From positions 496,001 to 560,000 of the forward strand of contig JAHBUK010000003.1 in NCBI GenBank assembly GCA_019638115.1: a stretch of 64,000 nucleotides of DNA, written 5' to 3'. The notes beneath the pieces are model-generated. The model had not been told where the DNA came from, ran no database searches, and saw nothing but the letters and a program-made list of their open reading frames with translations. Of the stretch, positions 3,958-27,066 are shown in pieces (the first letter of the stretch is position 1; each line of letters begins with the position of its first letter). The DNA is from Flavobacteriales bacterium (GTDB lineage Bacteria; Bacteroidota; Bacteroidia; Flavobacteriales_F; PHOS-HE28). The translations under genes were made by a program, and so were the position numbers.

Positions 3958-5018
3958 CCACTGCCAACGAAGTCGTATCGGGTAACGGTGCCAAGCCGGG
4001 AGCTGTCAGACCGAGCGCAGCCGAGGGCTATGCCAGCGACCAGGAAGTGCGCTGGTGCCCCGGTTGTGGCGACTACAGCATCCTGAAGCAGGTGGAGACC
4101 GTGCTGAAAGAGCAGGGCAAACCCAAGGAGGAGATCGTGTTCATCAGCGGCATCGGCTGCAGCTCGCGATTCCCGTACTACCTGGACACCTACGGCATGC
4201 ACAGCATCCATGGCCGTGCGCCCGCCATCGTCAGCGGCCTGCGCGCCGTGCGTCCGGAGCTCAGCGTGTGGATGATCACCGGTGATGGCGATGCGCTCAG
4301 CATCGGCGGAAACCACCTGATCCACCTGCTGCGCCGCAACGTGGACGTGAACGTGCTGCTCTTCAACAACGAGATCTACGGCCTCACCAAGGGGCAGTAC
4401 TCGCCCACCTCACCGGAAGGGGCCATCACCAAGAGCACGCCCATGGGCAGCGTGGACCATCCGTTCAATCCGCTGGCCTTGTGCAAGGGCGCCGATGCCA
4501 CCTTCATCGCCCGCGCCATGGACCGCGACCCGAAGCACATGCGCGAGGTGCTGCTCGCCGCCGATGCGCACCGCGGCACCAGCCTCATCGAGATCTACCA
4601 GAACTGCAACGTCTTCAATGATGGTGCTTTCGAGGTCTTCACGGAGAAGGCCAGCAAGCCCTTCCGCACACTCTTCGTGGAACACGGCAAGCCGCTCGTC
4701 TTCGCCAACGGCACCAAGGGCATCAAGCTGGACGGCATGACGCCCGTGATCGTGGACCTGGGCGATGGCAGTACTTCACTGGACGATCTCTGGATACACG
4801 ACCAGCACGACAGCTTCAAGGCTTCGATCCTTGTGCGCCTCTTTGATGATCAAGTGCAGGAGGGCGCCATGCCGCGTCCCTTCGGCGTGTTCTACGTGGC
4901 CGCCCGTGCCAGCATGGAGACGAAGCTGAACGCACAGGTGGCGCTGGCCAAGCAGAAAAAAGGCCCCGGCGACCTGGATGCCTTGTTGCGCGGGGAGCGG
5001 ACGTGGACGATCCAATGA
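3954..5018 (+). CDS. korB: 2-oxoglutarate:ferredoxin oxidoreductase-type, beta subunit
   Basis: A 354-residue beta subunit that binds thiamine diphosphate and a [4Fe-4S] cluster. The cluster and cofactor region includes CPGCGDY (Cys at about residues 35 and 38) and GIGCSSRFPYY; the ThDP motif runs from GDGDALSIGG to LLFNNEIYGLTKGQ. It follows korA with a 4-bp overlap. The stop codon is at 5016-5018 and the next base begins a perfect REP-type inverted repeat that could also end the transcript. Confidence 0.92.
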   Translation: MTTANEVVSGNGAKPGAVRPSAAEGYASDQEVRWCPGCGDYSILKQVETVLKEQGKPKEEIVFISGIGCSSRFPYYLDTYGMHSIHGRAPAIVSGLRAVRPELSVWMITGDGDALSIGGNHLIHLLRRNVDVNVLLFNNEIYGLTKGQYSPTSPEGAITKSTPMGSVDHPFNPLALCKGADATFIARAMDRDPKHMREVLLAADAHRGTSLIEIYQNCNVFNDGAFEVFTEKASKPFRTLFVEHGKPLVFANGTKGIKLDGMTPVIVDLGDGSTSLDDLWIHDQHDSFKASILVRLFDDQVQEGAMPRPFGVFYVAARASMETKLNAQVALAKQKKGPGDLDALLRGERTWTIQ

Positions 5019-5089
5019 CTTGGGTCACCCGGCTTCCAGCCGGTGACTGTAGCTTAGCATGTCACCGGCTGGAAGCCGGGTGACCCAAG
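5019..5089. repeat. REP-type perfect 29-bp inverted repeat
   Basis: Two perfectly complementary 29-base arms (5019-5047 and 5061-5089) enclose a 13-base spacer. Each arm contains its own small hairpin, CCGGCT-TCC-AGCCGG. The left arm begins one base after the korB stop and the right arm ends 2 bases before the transposase ATG. A shortened relative lies at 5736-5770. This is the arrangement expected of REP/BIME elements next to their RAYT gene. Confidence 0.9.
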
Positions 5090-5091
5090 CC

Positions 5092-5724
5092 ATGAGCTCC
5101 GACTCCTACATCCTCGAGGATCCATTCTTCGATGACGACCTGGAGACCGTGCGCACCCGACGCAACCTCCCTCATTGGAGCCAAGAGGGCAAACTCTATT
5201 TCGTCACGTGGCGCCTGGCAGATAGCTTACCGCAGAAAGCACTGAAGCAGATCGAGGCAGACCGAAAGGCTTGGTATGGCCAATATGGTGGCACCTCCAT
5301 TGCCGATTTGGAGCCCAGCGTGAGAAAGGAGTGGTATCGCCTCTTTGATCAACGTGTACAACTGTGGCTCGATGCAGGTCATGGCTCATGCATCCTTCGC
5401 AAGCCGGAAGCGAAACGGATCATGGCAGATGCACTGCACCATTTCCATGACAAGCGTTACCATCTGGGCAGCTTCGCGATCGCGGGCAACCATGTGCATG
5501 TGCTCGTCGCGCCCCACCCAACGGTCGAGCTTTCAAGTGTGATCCACAGTTGGAAGTCCTTCACCTCGAACGCGATCAACAAAGCCCTGGGGCGAACCGG
5601 GCGCTTGTGGATGGATGAGTACTTCGATCGCATCTTGCGCAACCAGCTGCACTTGGAACGTGTGGAAGGCTACATCGCCGCGCATGTGCGGCAGGGGGCG
5701 TACGTGGAGCGGCGGCCGAGTTGA
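5092..5724 (+). CDS. REP-associated tyrosine transposase (RAYT, Y1/IS200-like)
   Basis: A 210-residue Y1 transposase of the REP-associated class, a single-strand DNA nuclease thought to recognise REP hairpins. The HUH motif is in GNHVHVLVAPHP. The C-terminal part holds WMDEYFDRILRNQLHL and EGYI, whose tyrosine is the candidate nucleophile. The usual ENPVKAGL tail is replaced here by AAHVRQGAYVE, so activity is uncertain. An ATG at 5059 lies inside the inverted repeat; 5092 is chosen because it starts just after the repeat and gives the family length. Confidence 0.85.
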   Translation: MSSDSYILEDPFFDDDLETVRTRRNLPHWSQEGKLYFVTWRLADSLPQKALKQIEADRKAWYGQYGGTSIADLEPSVRKEWYRLFDQRVQLWLDAGHGSCILRKPEAKRIMADALHHFHDKRYHLGSFAIAGNHVHVLVAPHPTVELSSVIHSWKSFTSNAINKALGRTGRLWMDEYFDRILRNQLHLERVEGYIAAHVRQGAYVERRPS

Positions 5725-5735
5725 GGGGGCGTGTA

Positions 5736-5770
5736 CTTGGCAGGCACCGGCTGGAAGCCGATGCGCCAAG
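5736..5770. repeat. Degenerate REP hairpin downstream of the RAYT gene
   Basis: CTTGGC and GCCAAG arms enclose CACCGGCTGGAAGCCG, the same 16-base core found in the right arm of the repeat at 5061-5089. A second simple hairpin follows (CTTCTTCG at 5773-5780 with CGAAGAAG at 5796-5803). Together with the upstream repeat it flanks the transposase gene. Confidence 0.7.
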
Positions 5771-5922
5771 CACTTCTTCGATAGCCGACAGGATGCGAAG
5801 AAGATGAAGGGGTAGTTGACGGCCTGGGTAGTTCCCCGTAAGCTGAACTTTCCTCCAACAAGTGAACATCACCCCATTCGAGGTTATCCAAGATTCGATC
5901 CGGTGCATGACCGACCGTAAGC

Positions 5923-8574
5923 TCATCGCACGTAGTAGTTGATCGGAAGCTCGACTATCTCATCTGTCGGTTTTCCCTTTCGGATAGCGGGCTCCCATAT
6001 GGGCATACCCCGTAGAACACGGTTCACCTCATTGGTGAATTCTTCCGGCGGGCCGAACAGGACCCCGATCTCACCGATCGTACCATCGCGTAAGATGGTT
6101 ACGGGCACCATCACGGAGATGCTGTTCTCACCACGGTATCTGAAGTTCTGACCGAGATATTGCTCGTATGCTTGGTCACCACCAGGAAACCTGGGAGCAC
6201 GATCAGCTTCGCTTGGTGAAATACCCTCCCCCCAACACGGGAATACCACCCCCATCAACGCACTCCTGAACTCCTCCCGCTTCGCCCGCGCCTGTTGCCG
6301 TTTCGCCTCCAACTCCAGCCACTGCAAGTGCCGCGCCTGTTCCACCAAGTCGTTCACCAAGGAGGTGGTGACCTCTGGCGTGCGTACCATCCTGCGCAAG
6401 CGCTCCTCATCGGAAGGTTCCATGCTTAGCGTGATCGGACCCGGAGCGGTGATGTCCTGGCGCGATGCTGCGTACAGCACGCCATCCTTGCGGCCCATGC
6501 ACACGAGGTCGTACTGGAACAAGGCGTTCAGGTTCTCGGTGAAGGTGCCATTAACCTCCAATACGCGCTGGTAGCTGTTCAGCTCCTTCGGGATCAGGTA
6601 CACGCGCAGGTCGCTGAAGAGCTCCTTGTCCGCCACGTCGATGGAGACAGGCGAGTAGGTGAGCGTGGCGGTCTTGCCGCTTTGGTCGTCCGTGTAGGAC
6701 ATGGAAGTGCGTGAGGTGGTCGCGGCCAGCACGGCCTTGTCCACGTTCCACCAGCCGGGGTTGGTGACGGGCACCGCGAAAGCAGCGCGTGGTGGGTTGG
6801 GCGGTGGCACCGGGTAGCCCAGTTGTTCGTAGACCGAGCGCAGGTTCGCGCTGAACTCCTTGACGAAACGCTCGCCGTCCTGCTGGATGTCCTTCATCTG
6901 CCGGTCCACCTGCCGCTTGTGGGCTTGTTGGTCCGCTTCGGCTTCCTTGCGGTGGAACGCCTCTTGGGTCTTGCGGGCCGCCTCAGCATAGCGTTGGCTC
7001 CATTCGGTGTACACCCTTCGCAAGCGCTCCGCAGCGTATGCAGGCAGTTCCACCCGCCCATCGTTCCGCAAGGCGAAGGATGCGAAGGCCCCATGCCCCA
7101 TGCGCACGGCCATGGAGTCCAACTGGCTCAGGTTCCTGTCCAGGTTGTTCACGTAGAGGTCCAGCACTTGGCCATCGCAGGTGCGATGGATCTCCCGCAT
7201 GCGCTCCTCGAACTCCCGTGTAGCGAGGTTGGTGCCGTTGAAGCGCTCGTTCCAGATGGCTTGGACCTTGGCGGGGTCAATGCCCATTTGGCCTCTTGAG
7301 GCCGAGGAAGCCATGTCAACGTATCGGAGGATCTGATCGATCTCCGCATCGCTGAGATCGTGTGGCGTCATAACACTCTTATTCCATTTTCTGAACAACT
7401 CGTTCGCATAAGGATTACCCGTCTTGAGGTAGGCTGAGCTGTTCTTGATCCATGCGTAGATGTCGCCTCGACCTTCCCAGCGTTGCCTTGCACCGGTCAG
7501 GGCAGGGCCGGTCAGGTTTCTTTCCGGACGATGGCACGCTGAGCAGTTCGTCGCAAATAGGAAGGCTCCGTTGATGTGGTCGGGGTCCGGACGAATAGCT
7601 CTCCTTGAGTATTCATCATACGAAAGGGTATCCGGGAATGCCAATGTCGAATCCGATCCGAAGGAGGTATAGCGGGAGTATTCCGCACTGAACGACCAGT
7701 ACAAACTATCCGTGTACCGCTTGTCCGTCGCATCCTTCCCCAACTCCGCCACCTTCGCCAAGTACCCCGGCGGGTAGAAGTCCAGTGTGGTGATGTCCAC
7801 TGGCACCAAAGTGCGTGTCAAGGGCTGCGGGTTGCGCCAATCCACGATGCCTTCCGCGGTCATCACGCCTTCGTAAAGCATCATGCGTGGGTCGGCTTTG
7901 TCCGCAGGTACCATTACCGTCAACGGTTTGCTGGGGTCGATGCCCACGCGCTTTCCATCCACCTGCGCATCGAGGTAGAACATGCCGCCGGTCTCCAATA
8001 GCGTATCGCCGCTCATGGTGCTGAGGCCCGCTTTCATGATGTCCACGCCATCGATCGCCTCGAGCAGCGTGACGCGTACGGGCTTGGTGATCGCCTTGCC
8101 GGCCTCATCGATGAAGGCACCCTTCGGAATGTCCACCACGAGGCCGTTCGGGGTGAGCAGCGTGGTATCAGCCTTCGGGTCGATGGTCATGACCAAGGCC
8201 GGAAGGCCGGTGCCTGAGGTGTCGCTCAGCGTGAGCTGTTGTTCGGTGTGCGCTGCATCGCTGCTCGTTAGATCCGCAAGGAAGTTGCCCTCCTTCGCCA
8301 GCATCCATCCGCCTACGGCAAGTATGGCCACCACCACCGCACCTCCCATACCCGGTGCCCACTTGCCGAACTTGTAGCTCCGGTAGGCTTTGTCCACCGC
8401 AGGGCGCAGCGCCAGACGTTCGATGCCGGCATGCAGTGCGCGTTGGTCATCCACCAATTCGCGTAGCTCTTCGCTGCTACGCATGCGCTCCTCGAAGGCG
8501 GCGCGGTCGGTGGCGTTCATTTCACCGCGCAAGTAACTGTCGGCGAGTTCGATCAGGGTCAATTCGTTCCGCAT
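5923..8574 (-). CDS. Membrane anti-sigma-like protein with c-type cytochrome and TonB C-terminal domains
   Basis: An 883-residue protein with an unusual order of parts. Residues 1-55 resemble the cytoplasmic start of Bacteroidota anti-sigma factors (LADSYLRGEMNATDRAAFEERM). One membrane segment is at ~77-92. Then comes a periplasmic beta-rich region, a c-type heme site CSACH at 344-348 with a likely distal Met402 (SVMTPHDLSDAEIDQIL), a charged coiled coil around 520-610, and a TonB-type C-terminal domain over the last ~110 residues (VPVTILRDGTIGEI, then MPIWEPAIRKGKP). It starts 3 bp after the ECF sigma gene, so it is the natural partner of that factor. Redox, oxygen or heme sensing is inferred only from the cytochrome domain. 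Confidence 0.82.
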   Translation of the reverse strand: MRNELTLIELADSYLRGEMNATDRAAFEERMRSSEELRELVDDQRALHAGIERLALRPAVDKAYRSYKFGKWAPGMGGAVVVAILAVGGWMLAKEGNFLADLTSSDAAHTEQQLTLSDTSGTGLPALVMTIDPKADTTLLTPNGLVVDIPKGAFIDEAGKAITKPVRVTLLEAIDGVDIMKAGLSTMSGDTLLETGGMFYLDAQVDGKRVGIDPSKPLTVMVPADKADPRMMLYEGVMTAEGIVDWRNPQPLTRTLVPVDITTLDFYPPGYLAKVAELGKDATDKRYTDSLYWSFSAEYSRYTSFGSDSTLAFPDTLSYDEYSRRAIRPDPDHINGAFLFATNCSACHRPERNLTGPALTGARQRWEGRGDIYAWIKNSSAYLKTGNPYANELFRKWNKSVMTPHDLSDAEIDQILRYVDMASSASRGQMGIDPAKVQAIWNERFNGTNLATREFEERMREIHRTCDGQVLDLYVNNLDRNLSQLDSMAVRMGHGAFASFALRNDGRVELPAYAAERLRRVYTEWSQRYAEAARKTQEAFHRKEAEADQQAHKRQVDRQMKDIQQDGERFVKEFSANLRSVYEQLGYPVPPPNPPRAAFAVPVTNPGWWNVDKAVLAATTSRTSMSYTDDQSGKTATLTYSPVSIDVADKELFSDLRVYLIPKELNSYQRVLEVNGTFTENLNALFQYDLVCMGRKDGVLYAASRQDITAPGPITLSMEPSDEERLRRMVRTPEVTTSLVNDLVEQARHLQWLELEAKRQQARAKREEFRSALMGVVFPCWGEGISPSEADRAPRFPGGDQAYEQYLGQNFRYRGENSISVMVPVTILRDGTIGEIGVLFGPPEEFTNEVNRVLRGMPIWEPAIRKGKPTDEIVELPINYYVR

Positions 8575-20102: not shown

Positions 20103-21562
20103 AACTGCTGAAGGACATCCTCTACAAGGTCCGCATTGAGCAGGTGGTGGGTTCCACGAACACCGCCATTGAGCAGGTGGTGTTCGACAGCCGTGCGGTG
20201 AAGCCCTTCGCGCTCTTCGTGGCCGTGCGTGGCACCCAGGTGGACGGCCATGCCTTCATTGCCAAAGCGGTTGCCGCCGGTGCGGTGGCCGTGGTGTGCG
20301 AGGAACTGCCCGCCGAACAGAAGGAAGGGGTGAGCTATGTGCGTGTGCCCAATGCGGCTGAAGCACTGGCGATCATCGCTGCCAACTTCTTCGATCATCC
20401 TTCGCGCAAGCTGAAGCTCGTGGGCATCACCGGAACCAATGGCAAGACCAGTGTGGCCACCCTGCTCTATCGCCTGCACCGCGGCCTCGGTCACAAGTGC
20501 GGCCTCATCAGCACGGTGGAAACGCGCATCGGACAACAGGTGATCGCCAGCACGCACACCACTCCGGACGCCGTGCAGCTCAATGAACTGCTGGCCACCA
20601 TGGTGGAGGAGCGGGTCACGTATTGCTTCATGGAGGTGAGCTCGCACAGCGTGGTGCAGGAACGCATCACCGGGCTCCAGTTCGTGGGGGGCGTGTTCAC
20701 CAACATCACCCACGACCACCTGGACTACCACGGCACCTTCGCCGAGTACATCAAGGCCAAGAAACGCTTCTTCGATCAGCTGCCCGCCACGGCCTTTGCA
20801 CTGGTGAACGCCGATGACGCGAACAGCGCGGTGATGGTGCAGAACACCAAAGCCACCAAGCGCTCCTTCGCGGTCCGCAACATGGCCGATCACCGTGCGC
20901 GCATCGTGGAGAACCAGCTCACCGGCCTGCACCTGAGCGTGGACGGGCACGATGTGTACACCCGCCTGATCGGTGAGTTCAATGCCAGCAACCTGCTTGC
21001 GGTGTACGCCGTGGCGGTGCTGCTGGGCAGCGCGCCGCTGGATGTGCTCACCACCCTCAGCGATCTGGAGCCGCCGCGTGGCCGCTTCCAACTGGTGCGT
21101 GGGCCCGGAGGCACGCTGGGCGTGGTGGACTACGCGCACACGCCGGATGCCTTGAAGAACGTGCTGCTCACGCTGAACGAGGTGCTCGATGGGCGTGATC
21201 GGATCATTACCGTGGTGGGTTGTGGCGGCGACCGCGACCGCACCAAGCGGCCCGTGATGGCGCGCATCGCCGCGGAACTGAGCGGACAGGTGGTGCTCAC
21301 CAGCGACAACCCGCGGAGCGAGGACCCCATGGCGATCCTGAACGAGATGCGCACAGGACTCACCACCACCGATCTGCAACGCACCTGGGTGAACGCAGAT
21401 CGCCGCGAGGCCATCCGCCAGGCAGTTGGTCTGGCCGGTGCAGGGCATGTGGTGCTGCTGGCCGGCAAAGGCCATGAGACCTACCAGGAAGTAGCGGGTG
21501 TGAAACACCCCTTCGATGATGTGGCCGTGCTGCAGGAAACCCTTCAACTCCTCCACAAGTAA
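20099..21562 (+). CDS. murE: UDP-MurNAc-L-Ala-D-Glu:meso-DAP ligase
   Basis: A 487-residue Mur ligase adding the third residue of the peptidoglycan stem. The ATP loop is [23 protein letters not shown] and EVSSHSVVQ follow in the central domain. SDNPRSEDP in the C-terminal domain holds the DNPR signature for meso-diaminopimelate. It overlaps ftsI and shares one base with mraY (TAATG). Confidence 0.95.
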
Positions 21563-22812
21563 TGCTGTACCACTTCTTCGAAGCCATCGGGTACAGCATT
21601 CCGGGATCGGGGGTGTTCGGCTACATCTCGTTCCGTGCCGCCATGGCCGTGTTCGTATCGCTGCTCATCTCGCTCTTCTTCGGCCGCACCATCATCAACA
21701 TGCTGCGTCGTTTGCAGGTGGGGGAGACCGTGCGCGACCTGGGCCTCGAAGGGCAGCTCAGCAAGCAGGGCACGCCCACCATGGGTGGCCTCATCATCAT
21801 CGCCGCCACCATCGTGCCCACGCTGCTCTTCGCACGCCTGGACAACATCTACATCGTGCTCCTGCTGGTCAGCACCGTGCTGCTCGGCTCCATCGGTTTC
21901 CTGGACGACTACATCAAGGTCTTCAAGAAGGACAAGCGCGGCCTGGCCGGCAAGTTCAAGGTGGTGGGCCAGGTGGGCGTGGGCTTGATCGTGGGTGTCA
22001 CCGTGTACTTCCATCCGGAGATCCGCACGCGTGTGGAAGTGCCCGAGGTGGTCGCCCAGCAATTCGATGATGCGGACGTGCACACCATCACCGAGGAGAG
22101 CGGAACGATGCACTACATGATCAACCGCAAGTCGCCGAACACCACCATCCCCTTCGTGAAGGACAACGAGTTGAACTACTCCTCCATCCTGGCGAAGCTC
22201 TTCGGCAACAACGCGCGCAAGTACACCTGGGTGCTCTACATCGCCGTGGTCATCTTCATCATCACCGCGGTGAGCAACGGTGCCAACATCACCGACGGCT
22301 TGGATGGACTTGCCACCGGCACCTCCGCGATCATCGTAGCCGCACTGGGCATCCTGGCCTATGTGAGCGGCAACATCATCTTCGCCAACTACCTCGACAT
22401 CATGTACATCCCGGGCATTGGCGAGCTCGCGGTGTTCATCGGTGCGCTGCTGGGGGCCTGCATCGGCTTCCTGTGGTACAACACCTTCCCGGCGCAGGTC
22501 TTCATGGGCGATACCGGGAGCCTGGCCTTGGGCGGCATCATCGCCACGCTCGCCATTCTGGTGCGCAAGGAGCTGCTGATCCCCGTGCTCTGCGGCATCT
22601 TCCTCGTGGAGAACCTCAGCGTGGTGATGCAGGTCTCCTGGTTCAAGTACACCAAGCGGAAGTACGGCGAAGGCCGCAGGATCTTCCGCATGTCGCCACT
22701 GCACCACCACTACCAGAAGCTCGGCTTCCACGAGAGCAAGATCGTTGCGCGCTTCTGGATCGTGGGCATCATGCTCGCCGTACTGTCCATCGTAACCCTC
22801 AAGCTCCGATGA
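21562..22812 (+). CDS. mraY: Phospho-MurNAc-pentapeptide transferase
   Basis: A 416-residue integral membrane enzyme that attaches phospho-MurNAc-pentapeptide to undecaprenyl phosphate to form lipid I. It has about ten membrane segments. Key text includes [46 protein letters not shown] and the histidine cluster [11 protein letters not shown]. The ~100-residue loop after segment 4 is longer than in Escherichia coli MraY, as is usual in Bacteroidota. ATGA overlap with murD. Confidence 0.95.
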
Positions 22813-24143
22813 ACAGGCTGGTGATACTCGGGGCACAGGAAAGCGGTGTGGGCGCGGCACGGCTGGCGCAACAGCGCGGGCTCGACGTGTTCGTGAGCGA
22901 TGCCGGCACCATCAAGCCGCGCTACCGCGACGAACTGCGTGCGCTGGGCATCGCCTTCGAGGAGGGTGGACACACCGCGCAGCGCGTGCTGGAGGCCTCG
23001 GAGATCGTGAAGAGCCCCGGCATCCCGGATTCCGCATCACTGGTGGTGGCCGCACGCGAGCAGGGCATCCCCGTGATCAGCGAGATCGAACTGGCCTACC
23101 GCTACTGCAAGGGTTCCATCATCGGCATTACCGGCAGCAACGGCAAGACCACCACCACACTGCTCACCCACCACATCCTGAAGCGCGCCGGAGTGGACGT
23201 GGCCGTGGGCGGCAACGTGGGCAACAGCTTCGCAGCGCTCGTGGCCGACGGCGATCGCGCCTGGTACGTGATCGAGCTCAGCAGCTTCCAGCTCGATGGC
23301 ATCCGCACCTTCCGTCCGGACATCGCCATGCTGCTGAACATCACACCGGACCACCTGGACCGCTACCAGTACCGCATGGAGAACTACGTGGCGAGCAAGT
23401 TCCGCATCGCCATGAACCAGCGCGACACGGACCACTTCATCCACTGCGCCGACGACCCCGTGATCGCTGATGCCATGACCCGCCACCCGGTGAAGGCCAT
23501 GCGCTGGCCCTTCACGCTCGGCGCGCACCTCGCCCAAGGGGGCTTTGTACAGAACGACCAGATCCACATCACCACCAACCGATCCACTTTCAGCATGTCC
23601 ATCCAAGAACTCGCCCTACAAGGAAAGCACAACGTGTACAACTCCATGGCCGCCGCCATCGCTGCACGTGTGCTGGAGCTCCGCAACGATGTCGTGCGCG
23701 AAAGCCTCAGCGACTTCCAGAACGTGGAACACCGCCTGGAGCACGTGGGCATGGTGAACGGCATCGAGTTCATCAACGACTCCAAGGCCACCAACGTGAA
23801 CTCCACCTGGTATGCGCTGGAGAGCATGGAGAAGCCCGTGGTGTGGGTGGTGGGTGGCGAGGACAAGGGCAACGACTACGCCGCCCTGCGCGATCTGGTG
23901 AAGCACAAGGTGAAGGCCATCGTGTGCATGGGCCTCAACAACGCCCCCATCATCAAAGCCTTCAGCGATCTGGGATTGCCCTTGGTGGAGACCGCCAGTG
24001 CTGGACATGCCGTGCAAAGCGCCTACGACCTGGCGGAAGCCGGTGATGTGGTGTTGCTGAGCCCGGCCTGCGCCAGCTTCGACCTGTTCGAGAACTACGA
24101 GGACCGCGGTCGCCGCTTCAAGGCCGCAGTGAAGAGCCTCTAA
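22809..24143 (+). CDS. murD: UDP-N-acetylmuramoyl-L-alanine--D-glutamate ligase
   Basis: A 444-residue Mur ligase that adds D-glutamate. The N-terminal domain starts [15 protein letters not shown]; the ATP loop is [22 protein letters not shown] and [10 protein letters not shown] follow; the C-terminal domain carries HRLE, NDSKATN and [17 protein letters not shown]. The start overlaps the mraY stop (ATGA). A separate gene resembling only this C-terminal domain lies 24 bp downstream. Confidence 0.95.
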
Positions 24144-24167: not shown

Positions 24168-24668
24168 ATGGAACAGAAGACCAACAATGCACCCCTGCGC
24201 ATCGTGGGCGGACAGTTGCTCGAAGCGCGCCGCAACGCGCTGAGCGCCGGAGCTTCCGCGCCCCACCGCCTGGAGCCCGTGGCCTCCATCGATGATGTGC
24301 TCTACGTGAACGATTCCCGCTCCACCTTCCTGGATGCGACGCTGGAGGCTTTCGCAGCGCTCGATCAGCGCGTGGTGTGGATCAGCGGTGCATGGAGCGA
24401 GGACATGTGCGAAGGACATGTGGAGGAACTCCTCACCGAACGCGTGTCCGCTGTGGTGCTCTTCGGTGTGAACGATGAGCAGGTGGGAGCCAAGCGTCCA
24501 GACCTGCTCTTCCATGCGGACGATCTGCGCACTGCCGTGTTCCTTGCGCGTGAGCTGGCCCGCCCAGGTGATGTGGTGCTCTTCAGCCCCGCTTGCCCCA
24601 GCGGCAACGGCTTCGCCAACTACGAGGAGCGTGGTGCCGAATTCAAACGTGCTGTTAGGGATCTGTGA
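24168..24668 (+). CDS. Stand-alone MurD-like C-terminal domain protein
   Basis: A 166-residue protein that aligns along its length with the last ~140 residues of MurD. Shared marks in order are HRLE, VNDSRST (MurD: INDSKAT), RVVWISG (PVVWVVG), GDVVLFSPACPS ([12 protein letters not shown]) and FANYEERGAEFKRAV ([15 protein letters not shown]). It has no ATP loop and no N-terminal UMP-binding domain, so it cannot ligate alone. It lies between murD and ftsW in the same orientation. It may be a regulatory or accessory product of an old partial duplication; no function is established. Confidence 0.8.
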   Translation: MEQKTNNAPLRIVGGQLLEARRNALSAGASAPHRLEPVASIDDVLYVNDSRSTFLDATLEAFAALDQRVVWISGAWSEDMCEGHVEELLTERVSAVVLFGVNDEQVGAKRPDLLFHADDLRTAVFLARELARPGDVVLFSPACPSGNGFANYEERGAEFKRAVRDL

Positions 24669-24674
24669 ACGCGG

Positions 24675-24774
24675 TTGTCAGTTGTCAGTTGTCGGAATAA
24701 CCTGATGGATCATCATCCCCCGCGCGGTCAGCATAACCACCCGAACCAACAACTGTCAACCAACAACTGACAAC
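24675..24774. repeat. Heptamer (TTGTCAG) repeats forming a large inverted repeat
   Basis: TTGTCAG, TTGTCAG and TTGTCGG in a row at 24675-24695 are mirrored by CAACTGTCAAC and CAACTGACAAC segments at 24747-24774. The two sides can pair around a ~45-base loop. It fills the only sizeable gap inside the cluster, between the MurD-like gene and ftsW. Related heptamers occur at 41957-41984. Confidence 0.7.
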
Positions 24775-24797: not shown

Positions 24798-25976
24798 ATG
24801 ACCACCCTGCTCCATAAACTGCGCGGCGATCGCGTGATCTGGATGGTGGCGCTTTTCCTGGCGCTCATCGGCCTGCTCGCGGTCTACAGCTCGGTGGGCG
24901 GGCTCGCTGCGAAGCGTTCGGGCGGTGCGGCCTTCTTCCTCTTCAAGCACGGTATGATGCTCGCCACCGGTGGCGTCATCATGTACTATGCTTCGCGCCT
25001 GCGCTTCGGCATCTACGGGCGCCTTGCGCAATTGCTGCTGGGCCTTACCGCGGGGCTGCTGCTGCTCACGCTGCTCATCGGCTCCAACATCAACGATGCC
25101 AGCCGCTGGATCACCATCCCCATCATCGGGCAGAGCTTCCAGACCAGCGACCTGGCCAAGGTGGTGCTCGTGGCCTACCTGGCGCGTGCCATCGCCAAGC
25201 AGAACGATGCCCCCTGGACCCTGCGCGATACCCTGCTGAAGTTGATGATCCCCATCGGCGTGATCTGCGGCTTGATCCTGCCCGCCAACTTCTCCACCGC
25301 GGCCGTGCTCTTCCTGGTGTGCTTCGTACTGCTCTTCATCGGCAAGGTGCCCGTGAAGCACATGGCCCTCTTCACCGGTCTGGCGGTGCTGGGCTTCGTG
25401 CTGCTGCTCTTCTTCGCCAAGGCCATGCCCGGCCTGCTCCCCCGCATCGATACGTGGAACACCCGAATCGAGTCCTTCATGGCCGACAAGCCCGATGCGG
25501 ATGCCAACTTCCAAGTGGAGAACGCCAAGATCGCCATCGTATCCGGTGGCTTGCTGCCCAACGGACCGGGCAGCGGCGCTTCGCGCAACTGGCTGCCGCA
25601 CCCGTATTCGGACATGATCTACGCCTTCATCGTGGAGGAGTACGGAAGCCTTTTCGGTGGAATGGGCCTGCTGCTGCTCTACCTCATCCTGCTCTTCCGC
25701 GCGGTGCGCATCGCCGGCCAATGCCAGCGGCCCTTCGGCTCCTTGGTGGCGGTGGGCCTTGCCCTGCTGCTCGTCATGCAGGCCATGGTGAACATGGCCG
25801 TCGCCGTCAACCTCGTACCTGTTACCGGCCAACCCCTGCCACTGGTGAGCATGGGTGGCACCTCCATCTGGTTCACCTGCCTGGCAATCGGCATCATCCT
25901 CAGTGTAAGCCGCAGCCTGGAAGAGGAACCTTCAACCAACACCGATGTCAAACGCCCACGGACTGCAGTCGCTTAG
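24798..25976 (+). CDS. ftsW: Septal peptidoglycan polymerase FtsW (SEDS family)
   Basis: A 392-residue SEDS protein with about ten membrane segments, the glycosyltransferase partner of FtsI. Typical text includes AVYSSVG, NDASRWITIPIIGQSFQTSDLAK, LLPNGPGSG, YSDMIYAFIVEEYG and the VTGQPLPLVSMGGTS motif. It follows a repeat-filled gap and overlaps murG by 32 bp. Confidence 0.94.
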   Translation: MTTLLHKLRGDRVIWMVALFLALIGLLAVYSSVGGLAAKRSGGAAFFLFKHGMMLATGGVIMYYASRLRFGIYGRLAQLLLGLTAGLLLLTLLIGSNINDASRWITIPIIGQSFQTSDLAKVVLVAYLARAIAKQNDAPWTLRDTLLKLMIPIGVICGLILPANFSTAAVLFLVCFVLLFIGKVPVKHMALFTGLAVLGFVLLLFFAKAMPGLLPRIDTWNTRIESFMADKPDADANFQVENAKIAIVSGGLLPNGPGSGASRNWLPHPYSDMIYAFIVEEYGSLFGGMGLLLLYLILLFRAVRIAGQCQRPFGSLVAVGLALLLVMQAMVNMAVAVNLVPVTGQPLPLVSMGGTSIWFTCLAIGIILSVSRSLEEEPSTNTDVKRPRTAVA

Positions 25977-27066
25977 GGTGATGATCTCCGGTGGAGGCAC
26001 CGGCGGTCACATCTTCCCGGCCATCGCCATCGCCAACGCGGTGCGCGAGCGGGAGGCTACTGCCGAATTCCTGTTCGTGGGTGCCGAAGGGAAGATGGAG
26101 ATGGAGAAGGTGCCGACCGCAGGTTACCGCATCGAAGGCCTGCCCATCCGCGGTTTCCAGCGCGGCCAGTTGCTCAGCAATGTGGGCCTGCCCTGGCGCA
26201 TCATCCGCAGCATGCTGAAGGCCCGCTCACTGGTGCGCACCTTCAAGCCGCATGTGGCGGTGGGCGTGGGCGGCTATGCCAGCGGACCCCTGCTGGCGGC
26301 TGCGCAGCGCATGGGTGTGCCCACGCTGATCCAGGAGCAGAACAGCTTCCCCGGCAAGACCAACGTGTACCTCGCCAAGCGCGTGGATCGCATCTGTGTG
26401 GCCTATGCCGGCATGGACAAGTTCTTCCCCCGCGAAAAGCTCCTGCTTACCGGAAACCCTGTGCGCCAGGATGTGGTGCGCCTTGCAGGCAAGCGGCCGC
26501 GTGGCTTGGAGCAGTTCGGCCTGCAGGACGGTCGGCCCATCCTCTTCATCACCGGAGGAAGCCTCGGTGCACGCGGCATCAACCGTGGTGTGGAGGCCGC
26601 ATTGAAAGCCTGGAAAGAGGCCGGCATCCAAGTGATCTGGCAGACCGGCACGCCTTACTTCAAGCAGGCCCAGGCCGCCGTGGAAGCGTTGGCATACAGC
26701 GATTGCAAAGTGCTCGAGTTCGTATCGCGCATGGACCTGGCCTACGCCGTGGCGGACCTCGTGGTGGCGCGTGCCGGTGCCATCAGCATCAGCGAGCTCT
26801 CGCTCGTGGCCAAGCCTTCCATATTGGTGCCGTTGCCCACCGCAGCGGAAGACCACCAGACCCACAACGCGCGTGCGCTCACCGATCACGGTGCCGCCGT
26901 GCTGCTGCGCGATGCGGAGACGGTGGAGAAGCTGGGAAGTGCAGTGCTGGAGCTGATCCAGGACCCGAACGCCTTGCAACGCCTCAGTGCCGCCATTGCC
27001 GCCTTGGGCACCACCAACGCCGCAGAGTCCATTGCTGTTGAAGTGATCCGTTTAGCCCGCAAATGA
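25945..27066 (+). CDS. murG: Undecaprenyl-diphospho-MurNAc-pentapeptide GlcNAc transferase
   Basis: A 373-residue GT28 enzyme that converts lipid I to lipid II at the inner membrane face. The nucleotide-binding GGGTGGHIFPAIAIA is near the N-terminus; FGGYASGP-like VGVGGYASGPLL, TLIQEQNSFPGKTN, FITGGSLGARGIN and the SRAGA-like VVARAGAISISELSLV, then PSILVPLPTAAEDHQ, are family marks. The chosen ATG lies within ftsW; GTG 25978 or ATG 25981 are alternatives. Overlaps murC by 4 bp. Confidence 0.94.
   Translation: MSNAHGLQSLRVMISGGGTGGHIFPAIAIANAVREREATAEFLFVGAEGKMEMEKVPTAGYRIEGLPIRGFQRGQLLSNVGLPWRIIRSMLKARSLVRTFKPHVAVGVGGYASGPLLAAAQRMGVPTLIQEQNSFPGKTNVYLAKRVDRICVAYAGMDKFFPREKLLLTGNPVRQDVVRLAGKRPRGLEQFGLQDGRPILFITGGSLGARGINRGVEAALKAWKEAGIQVIWQTGTPYFKQAQAAVEALAYSDCKVLEFVSRMDLAYAVADLVVARAGAISISELSLVAKPSILVPLPTAAEDHQTHNARALTDHGAAVLLRDAETVEKLGSAVLELIQDPNALQRLSAAIAALGTTNAAESIAVEVIRLARK

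Follow-up and report, generated by a model that had tools for sequence, protein, structure and literature searches.

A stand-alone MurD C-terminal domain with an eroded active site, encoded beside ftsW in Bacteroidia

Introduction

What is a lone C-terminal domain of MurD doing as a separate gene between murD and ftsW? The question is raised by a short frame in the window, by which we mean the whole 64,000-nucleotide stretch of Flavobacteriales DNA that was analysed. The genes around it follow the order of a standard division and cell-wall cluster, mraY-murD-mini-ftsW-murG-murC, where 'mini' denotes the stand-alone domain. The features discussed below are as follows:

21562..22812, plus strand: mraY, upstream of murD
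22809..24143, plus strand: murD, full length (444 aa), with P-loop; it stops 24 bp 5' of the mini, in the same frame
24168..24668, plus strand: mini, the stand-alone MurD C-terminal domain protein (166 aa); intact frame from ATG to TGA
24798..25976, plus strand: ftsW, which begins 129 bp 3' of the mini
25945..27066, plus strand: murG, the next gene of the cluster

The gene and its product

A sequence-only reading had described the frame as a free-standing MurD C-terminal domain of 166 residues that keeps the C-domain motifs, lacks the ATP loop and lies between murD and ftsW in an otherwise standard cluster, and profile searches, motifs and coordinates bear out this description. Against NCBIfam TIGR01087 (MurD) the product scores 105 bits (E 4.9e-30), short of the whole-protein cut-off of 211.95 bits, and covers only positions 293-440 of the 441; it matches Pfam PF02875 (Mur_ligase_C) at 32.1 bits, above the gathering cut-off of 28.4, and aligns to residues 290-436 of Escherichia coli MurD (E 1.8e-13). 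The motifs HRLE, NDSR, SPAC and FANYEERGAEF are present; no P-loop or central domain occurs within the 166 residues. Chance is excluded as the source of the match by these E-values and by the orthologues described below. In its own genome there are two matches, the mini itself and murD, at 37% identity.

The AlphaFold model has a mean pLDDT of 83.5 and a pTM of 0.75 and is poorly defined over its first 30 residues; its top PDB matches in Foldseek are MurD structures (C-domains; E 7e-12); as modelled, the protein has the Mur_ligase_C fold. Common ground with MurD is the sequence and fold of the C-domain and the HRLE, NDS, SPAC and NYEERG motifs, whereas the mini lacks the N-terminal and central domains and the P-loop, has in most cases lost K348 and has a gene of its own. 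The structure search also matches 8ras_Q and 8r6s_Q, a plastid RNA polymerase subunit that we take to be the MurE-like one. The likeness lies in the use of a Mur-ligase relative as a structural piece, but there it is another ligase, in another compartment and in a larger protein.

An 18-nt inverted repeat of the GTTGTCAGTTGTC type, with arms 89% complementary and 65 nt apart, fills the space from the mini to ftsW (window 24674-24774).

Distribution and selection

An ortholog search among close relatives had been proposed as a check on the gene, with absence counting against it. In the genus, own genome included, 43 of 45 genomes carry a match, and the two lacking any match are 69% and 82% complete. 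The frame is open and directly follows murD in all 43; in one of them a contig end truncates it, and another has an unreadable stretch. In a class sample of 396 Bacteroidia genomes (completeness at least 90%), a second match other than a split MurD was found in 62 genomes outside the genus, from 18 family codes; of these genomes 41 were opened, and each has a stand-alone frame. The usual arrangement in the 18 other families is mraY-murD-mini-ftsW. The second matches in genomes G253 and G325 were not counted, since they are partial sequences from split MurDs or from the edges of contigs. The majority of sampled Bacteroidia families have MurD only, and thus the mini is dispensable for the machinery as such.

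Named loci came from a pattern scan. Among the matches listed (118 loci), 43 of the 47 Bacteroidota loci have a stand-alone frame, and the carriers checked by name, such as Sediminibacterium sp. MAG03 (L221), are MAGs; the 71 non-Bacteroidota loci are mostly MurD-sized, and the sole stand-alone frame outside Bacteroidota among these matches is one of 97 aa in the reduced genome of Candidatus Stammera. Five of the loci listed, two of them in Bacteroidota, gave no HMM match.

Several loci depart from the usual pattern. Families f46, f4 and f42 encode a second, more diverged stand-alone copy outside the cell-wall cluster, and the copies of f4 and f46 adjoin a gene resembling an aldehyde dehydrogenase:

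L245, 5195-5833: second diverged copy
L246, 5617-6156: second diverged copy
L247, 5283-5822: second diverged copy
L248, 5371-5988: second diverged copy

In genome G320 (f74), a tandem pair of unlike minis stands between murD and ftsW (L253 2064-3141). Besides a normal mini, G040 encodes a MurD-like C-domain frame with an inserted stretch (L255 7170-7778), with no cell-wall genes nearby. In Blattabacterium cuenoti EUPHYsp (L204, about 4700-6063), murD occupies two frames, as if frameshifted.

For estimates of selection we quote only close pairs (MurD dN < 0.10 and MurD dS < 1), because saturation and GC-rich codons push NG86 dN/dS upwards in distant comparisons. Across 31 such pairs the median dN/dS of the mini is 0.136 (maximum 0.533), and that of MurD in the same pairs is 0.095 (maximum 0.237). 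The ratio is far from 1, the value that the sequence-only reading had named as a sign of decay, and this bears on the idea that the gene is a functionless, decaying partial duplicate of murD. That idea can point to patchy presence inside families f20, f41 and f5, and to a genus subclade (L034-L043, L059) in which HRLE is lost and the high values, up to 0.53, come from L038, L042, L043 and their relatives; in this subclade the gene may be in the process of being lost. With the frame open in every matching genus genome and the low median ratio, however, decay as a general explanation is largely refuted already, and we regard it as barely credible. Judged by these substitution patterns, the mini is a conserved gene under protein-level purifying selection, and the age and intact frame that the sequence-only reading had claimed are upheld by orthologues in the same slot of relatives.

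The same pattern speaks against a role in cis, in which the 3' end of murD would be kept as DNA or RNA for the translation or transcription of ftsW. The constant position just 5' of ftsW fits such a role, but selection acts at the protein level, start and stop codons are kept and many families manage without the mini, so that we consider it highly improbable.

The active site

Active-site residues were counted from an alignment in E. coli MurD numbering for 86 MurDs, 40 minis of the genus, 35 other minis and 25 domains of a family coded f73, in that order:

K348: 82/86, 0/40, 7/35, 5/25
R302: 86/86, 24/40, 17/35, 14/25
N322: 86/86, 0/40, 10/35, 16/25
T321: 86/86, 39/40, 22/35, 6/25
S415: 86/86, 35/40, 30/35, 13/25
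F409: 0/86, 39/40, 23/35, 14/25
P414: 0/86, 39/40, 13/35, 10/25

Roles in MurD are given for K348, T321 and S415 in the accessible part of PMC3527612 and for R302 in that of PMC4816537. Residues contacting D-Glu and nucleotide are eroded in most minis, and since catalytic residues are lost, it is very unlikely on these counts that the mini adds D-Glu. H301, D317, P411 and G426 are mostly retained, probably in the service of the fold. In 4 of the 86 full-length MurDs (L006, L029, L033, L069; three in the window's genus) K348 is replaced by H.

Could the domain still bind a ligand, for example as a sensor? Most of H301, D317, T321 and S415 is kept in the genus, as such a role would have it. Against it, K348 and N322 are each lost in 40 of 40 genus members, T321 and R302 vary outside the genus, and the MurNAc and ATP sites, which belong to MurD's other two domains, are missing from the mini. 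Binding of a D-amino acid, one of the earlier suggestions, fares poorly for D-Glu in the window's genus with the D-Glu-binding K348 at 0/40, and we think a ligand-binding role quite improbable.

A family without the usual MurD

The f73 set comprises 41 genomes from 12 genera. A clear match to the domain lies in a short open frame in 38 of the 41, with a weak match in G450 and no match in G439 (98% complete) or G453 (61%). In the 25 loci opened, the domain directly follows mraY, ftsW comes next in 24 (the other is at a contig edge), and no N-terminal MurD part is found in the mraY-ftsW slot. The domain is constrained here: dN/dS has a median of 0.071 and a maximum of 0.466 in 21 same-genus pairs (dS < 2). 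The slot of the Bacteroidales MAG STD1_214 (L199) also lacks murD; it reads mraY-[182-aa domain]-ftsW, with K348 kept. Thus, the domain has survived where the usual full-length MurD of the slot has not.

A MurD above the curated cut-off is encoded outside the slot in 38 of the 41 f73 genomes. On their sequences these MurDs are divergent, the 15 that were scored reaching 67-107 bits against a C-domain HMM of Bacteroidia MurDs, compared with about 260 for usual MurDs. A MurL-like match is present in 39 of 41 genomes, none of them above the Xanthomonas-based cut-off of 700 bits; in the class sample such a match occurs in 1 of 396 genomes, namely the f73 member G294, where the MurL-like part and MurD share a single 876-aa frame. 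Another example of the pair is the frame at L250 3764-6394, minus strand, and by frame length the two are fused in others too. The glutamate racemase MurI was found in 0 of 41 f73 genomes by a search that matches 10 of 14 control genomes.

These genes recall the MurD2/MurL route of Xanthomonas (PMC8788868, accessible part): in f73 MurI is absent, the MurD is divergent and a protein resembling MurL is encoded. The likeness is one of gene content; f73 differs in that its MurL-like proteins score under the Xanthomonas-based cut-off and a lone C-domain is kept in the old murD slot. Going by gene content, f73 is apparently a previously undescribed holder of this type of route. The term 'Bacteroid' was not found in the accessible part of PMC8788868, and a MurL-like/MurD pair in a Bacteroidia family appears to be new.

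Relation to MurD

How closely the mini is tied to full-length MurD can be judged from its neighbours in 106 distinct genomes of 17 families, including 25 f73 genomes. In 103 of these ftsW lies 3' of the stand-alone domain, and the remaining three are at a contig edge, which makes 103 of 103 checkable cases. A script places murD in the same locus in 79 of 106, to which G044, whose cut murD the script miscalled, is added; it is absent from the locus in G085 and the 25 f73 genomes. Outside f73 two separations were seen. In G085 the mini and ftsW share one contig and murE-mraY-murD lie on another; in L203 the mini, with ftsW after it, is separated from murD by about 2.1 kb that contain two other frames.

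These cases weigh on the earlier proposal that the mini regulates MurD, binding the full-length enzyme or its substrate and tuning its activity. In favour, the mini descends from MurD, and its place is directly after murD in each genus genome where it is seen and in almost all of the remaining carriers. However, it persists in f73 with the full-length MurD missing from the slot (it could yet act on the divergent MurD there), and it is parted from murD in G085 and L203. A predicted co-fold of MurD and mini, a weak test with 20 rows, gives a pTM of 0.55, a disordered link (residues 447-485 below pLDDT 50) and no confident docking, which argues weakly against a tight complex. Regulation of MurD is, in our judgement, unlikely, though less so than the alternatives weighed above.

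Trees are compatible with more than one history of the stand-alone domains. In a quick tree, 50 minis fall together to one side of a branch with SH-aLRT 90; a rooted tree needs more changes, and the f73 domains are placed inside MurD. In AU tests none of three groupings is rejected: the minis as one clade (p 0.27), the genus minis in a clade with the genus's own MurDs (p 0.18), and all stand-alone domains together (p 0.49). The f73 domain may be an old mini that was retained, or a MurD of that family cut down to its last domain. F409 and P414, shared by the genus, other families and f73 and absent from MurDs, hint at common origin or convergence. Left out of the trees and related row sets were L002, L060 and L061 (second copies of counted genomes), L008, L041, L059 and further duplicate loci. 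L058, the odd MurD-like frame of G040 away from cell-wall genes, was at first among 41 'f1' rows and was removed for the all-domain AU test and for the neighbourhood and residue counts.

Discussion

Partial loss of the active site, purifying selection and survival in f73 without the usual MurD make a job other than bond making probable. On balance we lean, by a modest degree, towards a small protein that consists of the MurD C-domain, has no catalytic activity and acts near MraY, FtsW and MurG in a role that needs no ligase, perhaps as an adaptor. The mini would do the part of the C-domain's work in which nothing is ligated. It would most likely belong to the membrane-side machinery of its neighbours MraY, MurG and FtsW, where, as an adaptor or docking piece, it might link the supply of precursors to the synthesis of lipid II or to septal polymerisation. 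The choice of partner is a guess; gene order alone cannot name it, because the whole cluster is conserved anyway. We tentatively entertain, at somewhat less than even chances, a history in which the stand-alone copy took over the C-domain function, freed from catalysis, and was kept when f73 swapped its D-Glu-adding MurD for a divergent MurD and a MurL-like epimerase.

Some precedent exists for complexes at the membrane that include Mur ligases. For Thermotoga maritima, binding of MurD, MurE and MurF to MurG and MreB has been reported (accessible parts of PMC4816537 and PMC6420597), and by analogy a C-domain with a docking surface of the MurG/MreB type would explain the facts. The complexes scaffolded by MurG/MreB, and the MurE-MurF fusion of Bordetella, are likewise described in the accessible part of PMC6420597; those ligases are whole and active, whereas the mini is a lone and, by its residues, presumably inactive domain. 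Within the accessible literature, our search found no described stand-alone MurD C-domain. The domain itself is known. What appears to be new is its occurrence as a separate gene, with an eroded catalytic site and a distribution of its own.

MurD is essential and serves as a target for antibiotics. The gene described here bears on the question of Mur ligases as structural parts of a membrane complex. Here ligation and any other C-domain function would be placed on separate genes, which offers a simple way to ask what the MurD C-domain does besides ligation.
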